A stretch of DNA of 32,458 nt from assembly GCA_903861145.1 (NCBI GenBank), contig CAIOTH010000105.1, positions 1 to 32,458 of the forward strand, given 5' to 3'. The stretch is from an uncultured Bacteroidota bacterium (GTDB lineage Bacteria > Bacteroidota > Bacteroidia > Chitinophagales > LD1). The first letter of the stretch is position 1, and every line of letters starts with the position of its first letter. Both the position numbers and the translations under genes were made by a program. Under the pieces are notes generated by a model that saw only the letters and a program-made list of their open reading frames with translations, was not told the DNA's origin and did no database searches. Below are positions 8,870-16,013 of this stretch, piece after piece.

Positions 8870-11245
8870 ATGATTATGAGGTCAAAATTACTTGCAGCCA
8901 TAGCACTTTTGGTTTTTCCTTTTTTGGTTAGCGCTCAGTCGGGCATTGTAAGGGGGAAAATAAATGAAACTCTTTCGGGCAAACCTTTGGATGTGGTTTC
9001 AGTGCAAATTGAAGGCACCACTTTAGGGGCGGTTACCGATTCGACAGGGGCTTTTACCATTACGGGCATTCAACCGGGGTTGTATAACCTTAAGGTCTCG
9101 AGCATTGGTTATAAAAGTAAAGGAGTGGCTGAAATCGAAATTACTAATTCGAGACCGGCGATTTTGAGTATTGAGTTAGAGCCCGATGCTAACCAGTTGC
9201 AGGAAGTAGATATTAAGGCCAATCCTTTTACACAAAAAGAGGAAAGCCCCATTTCGATACGCACTATTGGGGTGAACGAAATACAACGTAACCCCGGTGG
9301 TAACCGCGATATATCGCGGGTAATACAATCCTTACCCGGTGTTGGTTTCAGTAATGGGTTTCGGAACGATTTAATTATACGTGGCGGTTCGCCGGCAGAG
9401 AATAAATTTTACCTGGATGATATTGAAATACCTAACATCAACCACTTCTCAACGCAGGGAGGATCGGGAGGGCCGGTGGGTTTGATTAATGTTGATTTTA
9501 TAAGGGAGGTAAACTTTTATTCGTCGGCTTTTCCTGCCGACCGTGGAAATATGCTCAGTTCGTTGATGGATGTTCGTTTGCGAGATGGCCGTGATGACCG
9601 ATTTGGACTTGCCGCTACCCTGGGCGTTACCGATGCGGCGCTGAGCCTTGAAGGGCCTTTAAATAAATCAAAATCGGTAACGGTGCTGGCCTCGGTACGC
9701 TCATCGTTTTACAATTGGTTTTTTAAACTGATACAAGTACCCATTTTCCCTAATTATAATGATGCGCAGGTAAAGATTAAGTGGAAAATTGACCGAAAAA
9801 ACGAGTTTGAGTTTTTAAGCTTAACGGCCTGCGATATTTTTAAGCTGAACCTATCGGCTAACAAAACCGAACTACAGCAGTACGACCTACGTAGCATACC
9901 CGAAAACAACCAATGGAGTTATACCAATGGTTTTAAGTTTACCCATTTTTATAACAATAGCTATTTACAAGCGGTGCTTAGCAGCAACGAACTGGTAAAC
10001 GACATTGCCAAATACGCTAACAATAACCACGACTCGCTTAAAACACAAGATTATAAAAGTATTGAGAGCGAAAGTAAATTGCGGGTGGAATATATTGCCC
10101 GGAAAAACGGATGGAAATACTACGTTGGGGCTAATTACGAATTGGACTATTATTACAACCACTCGAATTTTGAAGGCCCGTTTTTTAAGTACGATTACCT
10201 GACTAAACTTTACATGCACCGGTACGGGGCGTTTACATCTGTAAGTAAAAGTGTGGCTAATAACCGGCTCCAGCTTTCGCTTGGCCTGAGGCTTGACGGT
10301 AATAGCTATAATAAGAGTATGGCCAATTTGTTTAACCAGCTATCACCGCGTTTTTCTATGTCGTATAACATTACCGATGCTGTGAGATGGAATTTTAATA
10401 CCGGTTATTATCATGAGTTGCCTGCTTACACGGTTTTGGGTTATCGTGACACTACCGGTGCGCTGGTCAATCAAAATCGTATAACCTACATGCGCTGCCT
10501 GCATTTGGTAACGGGGTTTGAGTATAATACCCGTTTTAGCAGCCGCGTTTCCTTAGAGGGTTTCTTTAAGCAGTATTTTCAAACCCCTTACCTGCTTGAT
10601 GATTCGATTGCATTGGCTAACCTTGGCGGGAATTTTGGGGTTGTGGGCAACTCGCCTGCGGCCAGCACAAGTAGAGGCAGAACTTATGGTGTGGAAGCTT
10701 TATATGAGCAGAAGCTTTTTAAGGGATGGTATGCTATTGTTTCGTATACCTTGTTTTGGAGTAAGTTTCAGAACACTGCGGGTCAATATGTTTCAAGCAG
10801 TTGGGACACGCGCAACATTATTAGCTTAACCCTTGGTAAAAAGTTTAGGCATAATTGGGAGTTGGGTGCACGTTTCCGTGCGCAGGGAGGCACGCCTTAT
10901 ACGCCCATTAATGTGGCATATTCGTCGCTGGTGCCGGTGTTTAATGCGAATCCTTCGGGCGTATTAAATTTTGGTGAGTTAAATACTTTGCGCCTTCCGT
11001 GGTTTACGCAATTAGATATGCGGATTACCAAAAAATGGTATTTCAGCAAATGGGCTTTTGAAGTTTACCTGGATATACAGAATGTTTACTACAACAAGCA
11101 ACCCGATGTGCCGGTACTAACCTATTTAACCGACGCCAATGGCAACCCACTTTACACGCCCGACCATATGAGTTATCAAACAAAGTTGTTACCAAATAGT
11201 GTTGGGGTATTGACGCCGGGATTAGGGATTGTTATTACCTATTAG
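8870..11245 (+). CDS. TonB-dependent outer-membrane receptor
   Basis: A 791-residue outer-membrane receptor. A signal peptide (1-23, ending VSAQ) is followed by a carboxypeptidase-regulatory-like domain (about 25-110), a plug domain (about 125-235, with RVIQSLPGV and NDLIIRGGSPAENKFYLDD) and a 22-stranded-type beta-barrel ending in ...GIVITY with a C-terminal aromatic. Two Met codons are possible (8870 and 8876); both leave the signal peptide intact. There is no SusD-like partner or glycan-degrading enzyme beside it, so it is not evidently a polysaccharide-utilisation receptor; the substrate could be a siderophore, peptide or other ligand. Divergence from the MarR gene suggests local regulation. 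Confidence 0.9.
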   Translation: MIMRSKLLAAIALLVFPFLVSAQSGIVRGKINETLSGKPLDVVSVQIEGTTLGAVTDSTGAFTITGIQPGLYNLKVSSIGYKSKGVAEIEITNSRPAILSIELEPDANQLQEVDIKANPFTQKEESPISIRTIGVNEIQRNPGGNRDISRVIQSLPGVGFSNGFRNDLIIRGGSPAENKFYLDDIEIPNINHFSTQGGSGGPVGLINVDFIREVNFYSSAFPADRGNMLSSLMDVRLRDGRDDRFGLAATLGVTDAALSLEGPLNKSKSVTVLASVRSSFYNWFFKLIQVPIFPNYNDAQVKIKWKIDRKNEFEFLSLTACDIFKLNLSANKTELQQYDLRSIPENNQWSYTNGFKFTHFYNNSYLQAVLSSNELVNDIAKYANNNHDSLKTQDYKSIESESKLRVEYIARKNGWKYYVGANYELDYYYNHSNFEGPFFKYDYLTKLYMHRYGAFTSVSKSVANNRLQLSLGLRLDGNSYNKSMANLFNQLSPRFSMSYNITDAVRWNFNTGYYHELPAYTVLGYRDTTGALVNQNRITYMRCLHLVTGFEYNTRFSSRVSLEGFFKQYFQTPYLLDDSIALANLGGNFGVVGNSPAASTSRGRTYGVEALYEQKLFKGWYAIVSYTLFWSKFQNTAGQYVSSSWDTRNIISLTLGKKFRHNWELGARFRAQGGTPYTPINVAYSSLVPVFNANPSGVLNFGELNTLRLPWFTQLDMRITKKWYFSKWAFEVYLDIQNVYYNKQPDVPVLTYLTDANGNPLYTPDHMSYQTKLLPNSVGVLTPGLGIVITY

Positions 11246-11340
11246 GCAGATAATGTCAAACCTTTTTTGGCGAGCTAATCGGCACGAAGTATGAATTTTG
11301 CGCAAAGGCGAGAGGGAGGATTAATATATATTTGTTGTTG

Positions 11341-11423
11341 CGCCAAATTGTTGAAGTCGGGAGACTTCAACGGCCATTAAAAGTTCTAAGTGATCGGAGG
11401 CCGAACACTTAGAACAATTGGCG
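11341..11423. repeat. Multi-hairpin intergenic repeat (three-way junction)
   Basis: An outer stem CGCCAAATT (11341-11349) pairs with AATTGGCG (11416-11423, one bulge). It encloses two perfect hairpins: GTTGAAGTC-GGGA-GACTTCAAC (11350-11371), and GTTCTAAGTG / CACTTAGAAC (11383-11392, 11406-11415) with an inner TCGG-AGG-CCGA. The whole unit could fold into a three-way junction in DNA or RNA. It abuts the solo RAYT-end copy, so the two may be one composite element. No coding capacity was seen here. Confidence 0.7.
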
Positions 11424-11521
11424 GACATGTACTATTGTTTATAAGCGCAAATAACAAAATAATACACGCATTACAAATGCGAAGGCCGTGGAATCCTCGT
11501 TTTGGAAACGAGGACTAGTTG
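11424..11521 (+). repeat. Solo copy of the RAYT right end
   Basis: These 98 bases match 15012-15109 with about half a dozen differences. They hold the RAYT leader up to and including its start codon (CAT at 11426-11428 on this strand) and the same two hairpins: CGCATT-ACA-AATGCG (11467-11481) and TCCTCGTTT-TGG-AAACGAGGA (11494-11514). The transposase body is missing, so this is a non-autonomous REP-like derivative. It is in the same orientation as the RAYT copy. The remainder of the gap to the next gene (11522-11611) shows nothing else clear. Confidence 0.85.
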
Positions 11522-11611
11522 AGCGCAATGGGGCGGCTTCAACGCCAATGCCCTTGACACCACAAGGATTTTTTGCTTTTGTCAATTCAGATGATTAGGT
11601 AATTTGCACTC

Positions 11612-12475
11612 ATGCAAACCACGACAGAATTATTGGGATTGATAGAACTGAAAAAACATTCCGAAACTATCTTCGAAGGGGCCAGCAACTTTATGGGTAG
11701 CCCGAATGTTTTTGGCGGGCAGGTGGTGGCACAGGCACTGAATGCTGCTACACGTACAGTGCCTGCAGAGCGGATATGCCATTCACTTCATTGCTATTTC
11801 ATTCTGCCGGGAAACCTGAACCTGCCCATTATGTATCATGTAATGGAAATACGTGATGGAGGAAGTTTTACTACACGGTTTATACAGGCCAAGCAAAACG
11901 ATGTGCCCATCTTTGTAATGGCTGCATCATTTCAGAAAGTGGAAGAAGGATACTTTCATCAGGCACCGATGCCGAAGGTACCGATGCCGGAAGAACTATC
12001 GCAATGGATAAATATAGATGAAGAAACGCATCCGCATATAGCCACCATGATGAAAGCCTACCTTGAAATCCCCAGACCGCTTGAAATGCGCTCCTGCCAG
12101 CCCGATATCAGGCCGGGTGAAGAGGCCAGCCCCGAAAATCGGGTGTGGTTTAAATTTAAGGAAGCACCGGACAACCTGGATTGGAAGACTGTTCAGCAGC
12201 TGATAGCTTATGCCTCAGATTACAATGTGCTGAGTACTGCGCTTCACCCACATACACGGGAGGCTAACTTTCTCAATACGCAGCTCGCAAGTCTCGATCA
12301 TGCGATATGGTTTCACCAAAAGACCGACCTCAGCGACTGGCTGCTGTTTGACCTCATATCTCCCATAGCCTCCGGCGCAAGGGGGCTCACTACCGGGCAC
12401 ATCTTCGACCGCTCAGGGCGCCTGATCGCCAGTGTGTCTCAAGAGGGTTTGATGCGGCCGCGGTCGGTCAAGTGA
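11612..12475 (+). CDS. tesB: Acyl-CoA thioesterase II (TesB)
   Basis: A 287-residue cytoplasmic double hot-dog enzyme that hydrolyses acyl-CoA to free fatty acid and CoA. Length equals the family standard (about 286). The first hot-dog carries FGGQVVAQAL (34-43). The second has SLDHAIWFH (227-235, Asp229), ASGARG and the terminal VSQEG (Gln277), all TesB signatures. The start follows the solo REP copy by about 90 bases. Base composition is like the rest of the chromosome, in contrast to the AT-rich pair downstream. Confidence 0.93.
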   Translation: MQTTTELLGLIELKKHSETIFEGASNFMGSPNVFGGQVVAQALNAATRTVPAERICHSLHCYFILPGNLNLPIMYHVMEIRDGGSFTTRFIQAKQNDVPIFVMAASFQKVEEGYFHQAPMPKVPMPEELSQWINIDEETHPHIATMMKAYLEIPRPLEMRSCQPDIRPGEEASPENRVWFKFKEAPDNLDWKTVQQLIAYASDYNVLSTALHPHTREANFLNTQLASLDHAIWFHQKTDLSDWLLFDLISPIASGARGLTTGHIFDRSGRLIASVSQEGLMRPRSVK

Positions 12476-12570
12476 GATAGTATAGTAGACATGAATTTCC
12501 TGAAAAAAAATTATCCGCTCCTTTAAGCGAAGCACATTTTTATTTATTAGGGATTTAAGGCTTAAAACGG

Positions 12571-12578
12571 TAATTTTG
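12571..12578 (+). promoter_or_regulatory. Possible -7 element for the AraC gene
   Basis: TAATTTTG matches TAnnTTTG. It overlaps the area of the possible TTG start at 12580, which would lie at or before the transcript start. This supports the ATG at 12610. No clear -33 TTTG is present. Confidence 0.4.
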
Positions 12579-12609
12579 ATTGGCTCGAAAAGAAGGGAAG
12601 CCTACAGAT

Positions 12610-13473
12610 ATGCAAGAAACAAATGGAAAATCCGGGAACTTGCAGAACGACAAATTGAGCATAAAGATTAACTCAAACGATAATCCTTATCATTCATCTG
12701 ATATTCAGCAAAAGCGCCTGCAACCTCGTAGGCTAACTTCTTATTTTATTGTATTAATTGACAGCGGCTCTATTACATACAAATTAGACTTACAAGACAT
12801 TACTGTTACTGACGGACAGTTGCTTTTTGCAATGCCCAATCAAATTTTTGCACCACCCGCTAAAACAGACAATCTTAAATATTTCAAGGTGCTATTTGAT
12901 GAAAATACACTGGCATTGCTTCCTCAACAATTTCCTTTTTTAGTTAATCCTTTAAAGTCACAAACTATAATTTTTGACGATGCTGCAAGAAAGAGAGTAA
13001 GAAAAGTTTTTGAAATTTTAAATCAGATACTTCACTTAGATAAGCATCCAACTGATACAGAAATAACATTAGCTTACCTGAACTCACTATTATCAGAATT
13101 GAACAGTGCTTATTTCAAAACCAAAGAACCAATTAATATTTTAAACACTAACCTGTCAAAGTTTATTGAGTTTAAATTAGTGGTGGAAACACACCTTACC
13201 GAGCAACCGTCTATAAATACAATTGCTAAAAAATTGGATTTAACTACAAATGGCTTATATCGGCTTGTAAAAGAATGTTCAGGCACATCGCCAAAGGAGT
13301 TTTTCACTAACCGCCTGATGATGGAAGCACAGCGGAAACTGCGCTATTCTAATCTTTCTGTAAAAGAATTAGCGTATGAATTAGGATTTAATGACCCGGA
13401 TTATTTTTCAAGGCTTTTCAAAAAAAGCACAGGAAAAAATGTAAGCGACTTTTTACAAAGTCAAGATTTGTAG
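12610..13473 (+). CDS. AraC-family transcriptional regulator
   Basis: A 287-residue DNA-binding regulator. The N-terminal half is a divergent cupin-like sensing region. The C-terminal 100 residues are two AraC/XylS helix-turn-helix units: one around SINTIAKKLDLTTNGLYRLVK, then the conserved second motif with LSVKELAYELGFNDPDYFSR and LFKKSTG. I chose ATG 12610 over an upstream TTG (12580) because of the promoter-like TAATTTTG just before it. The gene is AT-rich with A/T-ending codons, as is the following dehydrogenase, unlike tesB. It probably controls that dehydrogenase 78 bases downstream, a common arrangement. Confidence 0.9.
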   Translation: MQETNGKSGNLQNDKLSIKINSNDNPYHSSDIQQKRLQPRRLTSYFIVLIDSGSITYKLDLQDITVTDGQLLFAMPNQIFAPPAKTDNLKYFKVLFDENTLALLPQQFPFLVNPLKSQTIIFDDAARKRVRKVFEILNQILHLDKHPTDTEITLAYLNSLLSELNSAYFKTKEPINILNTNLSKFIEFKLVVETHLTEQPSINTIAKKLDLTTNGLYRLVKECSGTSPKEFFTNRLMMEAQRKLRYSNLSVKELAYELGFNDPDYFSRLFKKSTGKNVSDFLQSQDL

Positions 13474-13494
13474 GGCAAATAAAACGATTTGTCC
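13473..13494. promoter_or_regulatory. Inverted repeat between araC-type and SDR genes
   Basis: GGGCAAAT (13473-13480) pairs with ATTTGTCC (13487-13494) over a 6-base loop, with one G-T pair. It could be a weak terminator of the regulator gene (a run of T follows at 13504) or an operator upstream of the dehydrogenase promoter. Confidence 0.35.
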
Positions 13495-13517
13495 ATTCCA
13501 GCTGTTTTTTTGCTCTC

Positions 13518-13525
13518 TACTTTTG
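13518..13525 (+). promoter_or_regulatory. Possible -7 element for the SDR gene
   Basis: TACTTTTG matches TAnnTTTG, 27 bases ahead of the ATG at 13552. A TTTG at 13488-13491 is a few bases farther upstream than the usual -33 spacing. Confidence 0.4.
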
Positions 13526-13551
13526 CTTCATTAATTTAAAATATTAAAGAA

Positions 13552-14289
13552 ATGAAAACAGCATTAGTAACAGGAGCAAATAAGAGCATTGGCTTTGAAG
13601 TAACAAAGCAACTTGCCCAAAAAGGAATTTATGTTTATCTCGGCAGTCGCAATTTAGAAAACGGCATAGAAGCCTTGAATAAATTAAAAACTGAAGGAAT
13701 AAATAATGTAGAAGCCATTCAACTTGATGTAACAAATGATGAATCGGTAAAGCAAGCCCGTGTAATAATAGGTGAGAAAACAAAATCATTAGATATTCTC
13801 ATCAACAATGCAGGAGTTTACGGTGGTTATCCGCAATCTGCATTTGACGCAACTGTAGAACAATTCAAAGCAGCATACGATACAAATGTTTATGGAGTAG
13901 TACGAGTAACACAGGCATTTATTGATTTATTGAAAAAATCCTCTGAACCTCGTATTGTAAATGTAAGTTCAAGTCAAGGGTCAATTACTTTGCACAGCGA
14001 CCCTTCATACAAATATTACGACTACAAAGGAGCTGTTTATCTTTCTTCAAAATCAGCCATGAATATGTACACAGTTGTTTTGGCATACGAACTGAAGGGT
14101 ACCAACTTCAAAATAAATGCCGTTTGTCCCGGATACACAAAGACAGATTTCAATGGTCATCGTGGACCCGGGACTATTGAAGATGCCGGAAAACGAATAG
14201 TGAAATATGCACTGATTGACAAAGATGGTCCGACCGGAAAATTTTTTAGCGAAGAAAACAATCCTGAAACAGGAGAGATAGCGTGGTGA
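13552..14289 (+). CDS. Short-chain dehydrogenase/reductase
   Basis: A 245-residue classical SDR with a Rossmann fold that transfers hydride from NAD(P)H to a carbonyl or alcohol substrate. Visible motifs are TGANKSIG (7-14; the usual glycine before IG is Ser), NNAG (85-88), the catalytic Ser in NVSSSQG (about 140) and Y163-LSS-K167. The PG motif follows in CPGYTKTD. The order resembles carbonyl-reductase-like SDRs with an insert before the catalytic Tyr. It forms an AT-rich pair with the AraC-type regulator, suggesting joint acquisition. The substrate cannot be told. Confidence 0.9.
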   Translation: MKTALVTGANKSIGFEVTKQLAQKGIYVYLGSRNLENGIEALNKLKTEGINNVEAIQLDVTNDESVKQARVIIGEKTKSLDILINNAGVYGGYPQSAFDATVEQFKAAYDTNVYGVVRVTQAFIDLLKKSSEPRIVNVSSSQGSITLHSDPSYKYYDYKGAVYLSSKSAMNMYTVVLAYELKGTNFKINAVCPGYTKTDFNGHRGPGTIEDAGKRIVKYALIDKDGPTGKFFSEENNPETGEIAW

Positions 14290-14395
14290 CAAAGTTCAAA
14301 CAAGTACGAAGCGAAACATCGAACCGCTAACAGTTGGCACAATTTGACTGAGCAACAGTACTGCAAGGAAGCTTGAAATTTCCGTCCCCTATTGG

Positions 14396-14444
14396 TCCTC
14401 GTTTATTTAACGAGGATTAATAGGCTTACGCATTTGTAATGCGT
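14396..14444 (-). repeat. Left-end REP hairpins
   Basis: TCCTCGTT-TATTT-AACGAGGA (14396-14416) is followed by ACGCATT-TGT-AATGCGT (14428-14444), the reverse-complement order of the right-end pair. The right-end outer hairpin has a different loop (TGG), so the stems are conserved more than the loops. Confidence 0.8.
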
Positions 14445-14458
14445 GTATTTCTTTCCAT

Positions 14459-15016
14459 TTAAATCCACAAATTAACCTTTACCAATCCCGTTTTACCGCT
14501 ATAGTCGCGTGCCGAACTATAGCGGTAATCTTCAGCAACTTCAACAATGCCGGCCCGCACCGGATTATCATGTATGTATTTTATTTTTTGCTGAGCCACT
14601 GCCGGAAAATGCGGATTTAGCAAAATAGCATGGTTACTTTCCTGCCAAAATTTGTAATTGGTAATACGCTTATCTGACTTTCCGGCCCATTCAAAACGGT
14701 GTAGCATCCATTCGCGTCTACTTTCAGGCTCGGTTTGCATGGCATTTACTATTGCTTTTGATGTATGCTTTTTAAAATCACGAATTATGCCCGACAACTC
14801 ATGTCCTTCGCTTGCCTGTAATACTGCGTGCAAGTGATTACTCATTAAACACCATGCCCACACCACTAACCCTTTCTTTTCGATGCAATGTGTCAAGCTA
14901 TCGGTAATTATTTCTTTGTAACGAAGCCTGGTAAATACATCTACCCAATCTACTACCGTAAATGTAATGAAGTATGGAGCGTTTTGTTCTGCGATGAGAT
15001 ATTTGTCGCCCGACAT
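14459..15016 (-). CDS. REP-associated tyrosine transposase (Y1, IS200-like)
   Basis: A 185-residue Y1 transposase from the preferred start at 15016. The HUH metal-binding motif is NHLHAV (His61, His63) and the catalytic Tyr is Y147 in KYIHDNPVRAG, both intact; FWQ and the TFTVVDW beta-strand are also typical. An upstream in-frame start at 15055 would add 13 residues, but that stretch is part of the repeated leader copied at 11424-11466, and family members usually begin MS.KY...PYFITF. The enzyme is expected to bind and cleave REP hairpins. All key residues are present, so it looks functional. Confidence 0.9.
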   Translation of the reverse strand: MSGDKYLIAEQNAPYFITFTVVDWVDVFTRLRYKEIITDSLTHCIEKKGLVVWAWCLMSNHLHAVLQASEGHELSGIIRDFKKHTSKAIVNAMQTEPESRREWMLHRFEWAGKSDKRITNYKFWQESNHAILLNPHFPAVAQQKIKYIHDNPVRAGIVEVAEDYRYSSARDYSGKTGLVKVNLWI

Positions 15017-15109
15017 GTACCATTGTTTAGCTGCGCAAATAACAAAATAATACACGCATTACAAATGCGAAGGCCATGGAATCCTCGTTTTGGAAACGAG
15101 GACTAGTTG
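15012..15109 (-). repeat. Right-end REP hairpins and RAYT leader
   Basis: This holds the RAYT start codon, a 5' leader, CGCATT-ACA-AATGCG (15055-15069) and TCCTCGTTT-TGG-AAACGAGGA (15082-15102). It is near-identical to 11424-11521 in the same orientation. Confidence 0.85.
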
Positions 15110-15641
15110 CGACTAGTTGTATTGTGTGGGTGTGCATAAATCCAAACAAGTTATCCTCACCCCTTGCGCTGTATTAAGAAGCTACTTACATTCGTAATAT
15201 AATACGAAATGTGATTATTGGTTTTATAGTTTCGAGTTGAGAGACAAGTAGCCAGCCCCTTCCGTCCCCTAAAGGGGAAACCAAGGCAGAAAGGCAAACA
15301 GCCGAAAATTGTTGAATTTGGATTTATGACAGTTTTCGGTTTTCAGTTTACAGTTGAAGATTTTCAGGTTTCAAGTTTCTGATTTCGAGTTTAAATGCGG
15401 AGGGACAAAAAAATTGGCAAGACCCGAGGAATTACTGAGGAGGGAAGTAGGTAAAATAGTTATAGGATTTGTGGCCACGATTAAGCGGCAATACATAATG
15501 AAAAAGAAAAAAGTTTACACTTTATGAAAACCTAAAAAAAAAGACAAAAAGCGCAAAATACAATATTGATAATGTGATAGATACATATTACAATAAACAA
15601 AAAAGTTTACAAAAGTTTACACGCATTTTAAAACCAATTTT
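15110..15641. other. Non-coding stretch before the small HTH gene
   Basis: No gene is evident in about 530 bases. Visible features are a CCCCTAAAGGGG hairpin near 15263, a degenerate TTTTCAGTTT-like low-complexity tract around 15330-15395, and AAAAGTTTAC boxes towards the gene at the right end. The last 150 bases are strongly AT-rich. Confidence 0.6.
15509..15620 (+). promoter_or_regulatory. AAAAGTTTAC box array upstream of the HTH gene
   Basis: One AAAAGTTTAC box (15509-15518) and a perfect tandem pair (15601-15620) lie in the same orientation. The single box starts 92 bases before the pair. The pair ends 21 bases ahead of the ATG. The same arrangement with the same 92-base offset occurs inverted at 22042-22153. 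Tandem 10-base boxes put binding sites on one helical face, so an operator for the adjacent HTH protein is plausible; iteron-like function is an alternative. Confidence 0.6.
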
Positions 15642-16013
15642 ATGATGACTGAAGAGACAAGAAACAAGTTGTACGGGACTGAAAACAAAGAAACCAGCAC
15701 GCCGGACAGAAACGCAACCTGGGAGGCTAACCATGTATTAATTGCCAAGGCCATGGACAAATTGATACGGGACAATGAAAGATGGCCCACTAAAACCGAA
15801 ATATGTGAGGCATGCGGCTTAAGCCGGCCAACAGTTTACAAGCACCTGGCCCAAATGAATTTAGCTGAGTTGCTAGGCGAAGCGCTTGGTGAATTGAAAT
15901 TTATGAGTGGGAAGGTATTGGCCAAATTATGTGAGAATGCCATGAACGGTGACATAAGGGCTACGCGGCTTACGTTTGAATTGATGGGAGCACTTAAAAA
16001 GGGAAGGGCCTAG
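15642..16013 (+). CDS. Small HTH DNA-binding protein
   Basis: A 123-residue protein with a clear helix-turn-helix at about 50-71 (TKTEICEACGLSRPTVYKHL). The polar N-terminus (1-28) is probably disordered. The helical C-terminus (about 85-120) includes NGDIRATRLTFELMGAL, which resembles the tails of phage small-terminase or transposase-type HTH proteins. I do not recognise a named family. Two adjacent ATGs (15642, 15645) are possible starts. No partner gene follows; the next feature is the tRNA-Glu terminator on the other strand. The repeated AAAAGTTTAC boxes directly upstream suggest autoregulation. Confidence 0.75.
   Translation: MMTEETRNKLYGTENKETSTPDRNATWEANHVLIAKAMDKLIRDNERWPTKTEICEACGLSRPTVYKHLAQMNLAELLGEALGELKFMSGKVLAKLCENAMNGDIRATRLTFELMGALKKGRA

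Follow-up and report, generated by a model that had tools for sequence, protein, structure and literature searches.

The window analysed here is a stretch of 32,458 nt (contig CAIOTH010000105.1, positions 1 to 32,458; assembly GCA_903861145.1) from an uncultured Bacteroidota bacterium of the order Chitinophagales; the genome to which it belongs (G000, 4.70 Mb in 174 contigs) is called the own genome below, and other genomes and contigs are cited by G and C handles. Two 98-nt direct repeats (11424-11521 and 15012-15109) bracket a tesB-like thioesterase gene, an AraC-type gene, a short-chain dehydrogenase/reductase (SDR) gene and the gene of a REP-associated tyrosine transposase (RAYT). The two copies align without gaps, differ by 5 substitutions (repeat positions 10, 19, 20, 21 and 65) and start 3588 nt apart; searched against the own genome, the first matches the second with an E value of 1e-38, a similarity beyond chance. 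An initial annotation, made from the sequence alone, had noticed these 98-base same-orientation repeats and estimated about six differences. Its statement that they include the RAYT leader, its start codon and both hairpins agrees with the coordinates, as the repeat spans the two hairpins, the leader and 5 nt of the RAYT frame (the minus-strand ATG at 15016-15014 and 2 further nt).

A RAYT element with inverted two-hairpin ends

The second copy of the repeat (15012-15109) is the start-codon end of an intact minus-strand RAYT gene (14459-15016), which encodes 185 aa from the ATG (MSGDKYL...), has no internal stop and carries the HuH motif NHLH and the Y motif YIHDNP. A longer, 198-aa frame opening at 15055 scores 92.4 bits against the NCBIfam model NF047646 (REP_Tyr_transpos; cut-off 80) and 31.2 bits against Pfam Y1_Tnp (cut-off 23), the sole Pfam domain found; NHLH lies at position 73 and YIHDNP at position 160 of this frame, a HuH-Y distance of 87 aa. 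No PDB chain matches the protein by sequence (E up to 1). The HuH motif, the Y---NP motif and the score against the curated RAYT model are those of the RAYT / TnpA_REP group (class 2), as are the REP-like hairpin units that flank the gene and have copies elsewhere in the genome.

Past the RAYT stop codon lies a third, inverted copy of the repeat (14389-14449; 60 nt, 80% complementary), to which the initial annotation did not refer. The 98-nt repeat is therefore the end of an element of about 0.72 kb (14389-15109, minus strand, ~721 nt), in which the transposase gene sits between inverted two-hairpin end units. The edges of the element were taken from an alignment of 24 units, and the edge at 14389 was set by extending an own-genome match at 14395-14449.

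The unit on the 5' side of the gene (15049-15109, plus strand) consists of an inner hairpin with a 3-nt loop (CGCATT-ACA-AATGCG, stem CGCATT/AATGCG) and an outer hairpin (TCCTCGTTT...AAACGAGGA), whose arms TCCTCGTT/AACGAGGA lie near the outer edge of the element. Its inverted counterpart on the 3' side (14389-14449, minus strand) was recognized by the inverted match, and the DNA fold of 14370-14458 has a z-score of -7.2. Folded as single-stranded DNA, all three window copies are more stable than shuffled sequences, whichever strand is folded (z -3.1 to -7.2). Where units occur bare, they usually measure ~61 nt, corresponding to repeat positions ~38-98.

Pairing was further assessed on 24 aligned units from the own genome, G006 and G011, with 500 shuffles and six slid controls. 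In this alignment 97.3% of the cells are paired (shuffled mean, 94.1%), and two-sided changes occur in 3 of the 14 hairpin pairs, a count reached by 1 of the 500 shuffles. The covariation score is 0.101, compared with 0.036 for the shuffles (none of the 500 reaches the observed value) and 0.006-0.046 for the slid controls, although kinship among sequences inflates scores of this kind. The unit hairpins thus appear, from the alignment, to be kept by compensatory change.

A probable truncated relic beside the thioesterase gene

The first copy of the repeat (11424-11521, plus strand) comprises the end unit and the leader, runs through the start codon 2 nt into codon 2, and is 95% identical to 15012-15109 over 98 nt. 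As the initial annotation had remarked, it lacks the transposase body: the adjoining sequence (11201-11423) shares no match longer than 13 nt with the RAYT gene or its far end (best E 0.06), so that no RAYT body is left beside it.

Seven end units were found in the own genome at E <= 0.01. Besides the two RAYT ends and the copy at 11424, they comprise two solo units (C133:864-926 and C9:1879-1937) and one inverted pair with a short spacer (C101:40136-40260); the search for end copies thus did yield other transposase-less units. The pair on C101 is the one REPIN-like arrangement of the own genome, and the copy at 11424 is a single end. Among the five non-RAYT units, this copy alone carries the RAYT leader and start codon, which makes it look more like a truncated element than like an ordinary solo unit. 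The earlier description of it as a non-autonomous product of the same RAYT accordingly holds in that it is a transposase-less derivative of the same family; what is refined is its description as a solo copy. Compared with the RAYT's own end, the copy at 11424 has one difference in the 61-nt unit and four in the leader, which suggests that it stems from the same recent lineage as the window RAYT. The own genome has one full RAYT of this family, together with two distant RAYTs (26-30% identity) on C53 and C69.

Immediately to the left of the relic, and abutting it at 11423/11424, lies a two-hairpin unit that belongs to a second repeat family and was likewise absent from the initial annotation (11340-11423, plus strand; DNA fold -25.4 kcal/mol, z -7.9). 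Further copies of this unit, 78-83% identical, are present at C68:12871-12945 of the own genome and at C113:278-350 and C265:89-152 of G011. By eye its hairpins resemble the RAYT element ends of G010; a G010 element end used as a DNA query found no match in the own genome, so that this link is a lead only.

Taken together, we assign a probability of roughly 0.75 to the reading that 14389-15109 is a Bacteroidota-type RAYT/TnpA_REP element and that 11424-11521 is the truncated relic of another copy. The HuH-Y1 transposase would recognize the hairpin units in single-stranded DNA and move the piece that lies between units, either with the gene, as a whole element, or as bare units, which would account for the solo units and the inverted pairs. 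The two elements would go back to separate insertions, 3.6 kb apart, from one lineage. At the tesB side, a full RAYT may have inserted beside the second-family repeat, and a deletion from the edge of that repeat to codon 2 of the RAYT would then have removed the body and the far end.

The relic could instead be the product of an abortive or one-ended transposition that placed just the 98-nt end beside another hairpin repeat. In favour of this, the relic's inner edge falls exactly where the second-family unit ends (11423/11424), and no remnant of the body or of the other end is present. The leader is nevertheless missing from the other 4 non-RAYT units of the own genome, and truncation of a full copy requires no new mechanism; we regard a one-ended origin as rather unlikely.

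Relatives of the RAYT and their inverted flanks

Of the 198 genomes of the order, 79 match the window RAYT at E <= 1e-30. Among 170 distinct RAYT places, the HuH motif is NHLH in 77, NHIH in 42 and NHVH in 24, with none found in 18; the Y motif is YIHQNP in 34, YIHNNP in 33, YIHENP in 14 and, as in the window, YIHDNP in 11, with none found in 9. Where both motifs were present, the median HuH-Y distance is 85 aa (from a regular-expression run, with outliers down to -54).

Inverted flanking repeats were scored at the 156 of these 170 places that had at least 200 nt on both sides (14 were dropped, and identical cores were counted once). Measured against mismatched flank pairs, 109 of the 156 score above the 99% level and 132 above the 95% level. 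This test replaced a first version (37/91 loci over the 99% level) in which the loci were redundant and the null included relatives. Inverted ends are a common trait of the RAYT relatives.

Bare units are commoner in two congeners, with 15 matches in G011 and, when its own end was used as query, 18 in G010, six of which are the ends of three RAYTs. An inverted pair of units with a short spacer also occurs on C215 of G011.

Whole-element copies at different sites

We surveyed 57 multi-copy genomes (33 + 24, with 92 + 75 loci and 207 pairs). The 33 are all the multi-copy genomes of the 198-genome order search; the 24 derive from 31 loci, chosen among 79 because their records name a strain, seven of the genomes having been dropped (six with a single match, and G234, Pseudoflavitalea rhizosphaerae, which repeats G165). 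A pair of copies was accepted if it was at least 85% identical over at least 400 nt, if the match in each copy reached 20 nt beyond either end of the gene, and if the sequence outside the match was unmatched for at least 150 nt. Eight of the 57 genomes (G010, G019, G031, G047, G052, G113, G211 and G225) pass this strict test, with whole elements 85-99.9% identical at different sites.

The closest pair consists of two 752-nt copies, 99.9% identical, that lie 4.8 kb apart on one 464-kb contig of G031. Chryseosolibacter histidini PWU4 (G211) has two 777-nt copies, 97.9% identical and 6.2 kb apart, and Mangrovivirga halotolerans M17 (G225) has three copies at 86-90%, one of which (C2:244190) is decayed and has stops. 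Three copies are also present in G010 (90-94%) and in G052 (92%), and whole-element pairs occur in G019 (92%), G047 (86.5%) and G113 (90%). In these eight genomes the copied stretch measures 0.7-1.05 kb, that is, the RAYT element alone or little more. Inspected by eye, the copies cease to be identical at, or close to, the terminal hairpins in G031, G019, G010, G047, G211 and G225, and less cleanly in G052. Six other genomes (G011, G064, G128, G166, G189 and G223) hold pairs of at least 85% identity that fail the strict test, with contig ends involved in G011, G064 and G128; the pair in G103, with a shared stretch of ~1.05 kb, falls just under the 85% level (84.9%). Outside the strict count, G166 carries a RAYT within a tandemly duplicated stretch of 1.2 kb or more, whose copies are 93% identical (C121:54077-55907; L291, L292).

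The published description of RAYTs as single-copy genes that are immobile as a unit is thus not matched in these relatives (8/57), and the own genome has one full copy and a relic. As assembled, mostly in draft genomes, the near-identical whole copies do not fit the single-copy picture for this type of RAYT.

Host regulatory hairpins (terminators, mRNA-stability elements or nucleoid sites), to which the RAYT would be linked secondarily, could also account for dispersed units. The window units are indeed intergenic and form strong hairpins, and cellular roles have been attributed to the REPs of other bacteria in the accessible text of PMC8266576. Against this, the units lie inverted at both ends of the RAYT, the same ends are common to the whole-element copies in relatives, and no Rfam family matches 11200-15700 (E up to 0.1). 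We consider a primarily regulatory origin of the units unlikely.

All four same-contig strict pairs (G031, G052, G211 and G225) are in direct orientation, as is the pair in the window; the chance of this for five pairs is 0.03, and a lagging-strand bias is therefore only a lead. Nearby direct solo units on C4 of G010 and C149 of G011 had been considered as independent same-orientation insertions. Their homology extends beyond the unit, indicating tandem duplication of a longer stretch, and they were not counted for that reason; units on C24 of G011 are without such extended homology, and one of the two is partial.

Three half-sites were found, in which homology to one flank starts ~0 nt (G010:C180 in G014), 23 nt (G010:C6 in G004) or 5 nt (G011:C203 in G006) outside the element. 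The element is absent at all three and no unit is reported there either; their opposite flanks are non-homologous, so that they are not full empty sites.

Some of the flanks at these loci are themselves repetitive. To the left of the RAYT element on G010:C180 (L305) lies a tandemly repeated array whose period is close to 88 nt, with the flank giving four overlapping matches. A motif of ~33 nt in the left flank on G011:C203 (L170; within GCGTCTCCGCAGGGTCGCCGCC...) recurs in G001, G004, G010, G011 and G014 and is another intergenic repeat of the genus. The ~31 nt preceding the element on G010:C6 (L306) recur at G010:C38 and G012:C201 and diverge just past the point of the element edge; this element possibly inserted into one member of a repeated gene family.

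Several observations weigh against the reading of an element and its relic, or narrow it. The Y motif of the window RAYT, YIHDNP, departs from the consensus YIH[QN]NP published for TnpA_REP subclass 2.6. The count of two-sided changes in the hairpins (3) is equalled by a +3 slide of the alignment, and the 9 further pair types by a -2 slide. The strict test fails in 49 of the 57 multi-copy genomes; the shared stretch reaches ~1.05 kb in G113, and left boundaries in G052 vary between pairs. No full empty site was found, as none of 16 joined flanks was spanned in another genome (27 genomes searched). With a single full RAYT of the family in the own genome, mobility there rests on the relic and on the relatives, and the mechanism of the truncation is conjecture.

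The genes between the repeats

The interval between the two elements (11522-14388, plus strand) holds the tesB-like gene (11612-12475), the AraC-type gene (12580-13473) and the SDR gene (13552-14289). The thioesterase scores 274 bits against TIGR00189, below the cut-off of 293. GC content is 34% in araC and 37% in the SDR gene, compared with 43% in the window.

A composite transposon, with the two end copies enclosing the genes as a cargo that the RAYT mobilizes, would explain why ends of one family flank the genes on either side, and the AT-rich araC and SDR genes could be foreign. The orientation is nonetheless wrong: instead of pointing away from a cargo, both outer edges, at 11521 in the relic and at 14389 in the RAYT element, are turned towards tesB-araC-SDR. 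The interval therefore lies outside both elements and is not transposon cargo. The copied stretch of 0.7-1.05 kb in the eight passing genomes likewise speaks against such a structure, which we hold to be highly improbable.

The initial annotation had also proposed that the direct repeats make the 3.6-kb interval unstable, so that homologous recombination would delete or duplicate tesB-araC-SDR-RAYT in the population. Direct repeats of 98 nt at 95% identity are enough for rare recombination or slippage. Presence across the genus could also be taken that way: pgk occurs in all 18 genus genomes (own included; 5 of the 18 fall below a standard of 90% completeness and at most 5% contamination), the SDR gene in 3 and tesB in 1, and the failure to find tesB in the other 17 could be explained by loss. 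The locus is, however, without counterpart in these relatives, as no other window ORF was matched near pgk (1.5 kb or less examined per side), so that a missing tesB need not reflect such a deletion. In the 3.6 kb examined of G012, relatives of the SDR and AraC genes are found together but no tesB, and the same holds, with more distant relatives, for G006. The own genome, moreover, has one tesB (E <= 1e-40), one such SDR (E <= 1e-30) and one RAYT of the family, which leaves the proposed deletion or duplication unit unsupported. Recombination between the repeats is possible in principle, with nothing found in its favour, and we think it improbable as an account of the locus. The tesB-araC-SDR genes are bystanders, placed between two elements by position only.

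To the right of the RAYT element, 15148-15212 carries another intergenic motif (roughly AAGTTATCCNCACCCCTTG...TTCGTAATATAATACGAA) that is dispersed in the own genome, where six further copies lie on C36, C145, C20, C123, C39 and C24 (74-81% identity). The copy on C123 lies near a relative (54% over 54 aa) of the window gene at 15642-16013, which encodes a 123-aa helix-turn-helix (HTH) protein with below-cut-off matches only, to HTH_Tnp_1_2 and other HTH models.

Implications

For the window itself the outcome is deflating, the repeat pair being probably an element and its relic; the wider interest lies in whole-element mobility of Bacteroidota RAYTs. We think it fairly probable that RAYTs of this Bacteroidota type are active transposons that copy themselves, have inverted two-hairpin ends and shed bare units, giving rise to REPIN-like repeats, and that they form a functioning link between IS200/IS605 insertion sequences and REPtrons, which are domesticated.

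In the accessible literature, the RAYTs studied are said to show no gene mobility. The available text of PMC8266576 states that there is no evidence of tnpAREP mobility, and that of PMC8049555 presents RAYTs as single-copy, vertically inherited genes. Conversely, the portions seen of PMC3686654 report Pseudomonas RAYTs at novel sites, reached by duplication or transfer, and those of PMC11194056 propose a RayT insertion near abeS in Chryseobacterium. No report of whole-unit RAYT mobility in Bacteroidota was found in the parts of the literature searched. If our interpretation is correct, a type in which gene and ends are copied together would run against the view of RAYTs as single-copy domesticated genes and would let cleavage, excision and insertion be assayed directly, with ~98% identical copies in a named strain and bare REP-like units beside their autonomous parent.

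Comparison with known systems

The closest described group is TnpA_REP subclass 2.6, which corresponds to RAYT group 5 and is mostly found in Bacteroidetes; the consulted part of PMC6006769 gives its motifs as NH[LIV]H, WQ and YIH[QN]NP. The window RAYT shares NH[LIV]H, WQ and a long HuH-Y spacing with this subclass, and has D at the variable position of the Y motif. Its spacing of 87 aa is in keeping with subclass 2.6 (published median 82 aa; 58-67 in most subclasses), but the median of 88 for subclass 2.4 fits too, so that spacing does not separate 2.4 from 2.6. In the same text, subclass 2.6 genes have atypical secondary structures on their flanks, and these structures recur elsewhere in the genome, as in the window. 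Unlike that description, as far as it was available, the structures of the window resolve into two-hairpin units, one at each end in inverted orientation, and near-identical whole elements occur among relatives of the window RAYT.

The inverted pairs of units with a short spacer (C101:40136-40260 in the own genome, and C215 in G011) recall REPINs and BIMEs. REP singlets are mostly decaying REPIN remnants according to the part of PMC8049555 consulted, and the solo units of the own genome could, by analogy, be decaying REPIN-like remnants. The window-type units differ from REPINs and BIMEs in having two hairpins each, in lacking a conserved GT[AG]G foot (these letters occur in 7 of 24 units per strand, scattered) and in their low copy number, with the seven own-genome units noted above.

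With TIRYTs and TIRtrons, as presented in the available text of PMC3733652, the element has in common a Y1 transposase between inverted repeats, some of them partly self-complementary, and dispersed copies. According to the portion of PMC6006769 at hand, 20 of 26 TIRYTs belong to subclass 2.1 and have a C-terminal HTH, and GGGGWSAS is common in TIRYT repeats. The window RAYT, in contrast, shows just Y1_Tnp by Pfam, and GGGGWSAS was not found on either strand of 14360-15140 or 11320-11560.

Finally, the element resembles IS200/IS605 transposons in its HuH-Y1 transposase, in its terminal hairpins and in the whole-element copies of its relatives, among which the G031 and G211 copies show no target duplication by eye. 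It differs from them in scoring 20.6 bits against the IS200 model (cut-off 55), in having Y---NP rather than Y---Q, and in being without a second gene.

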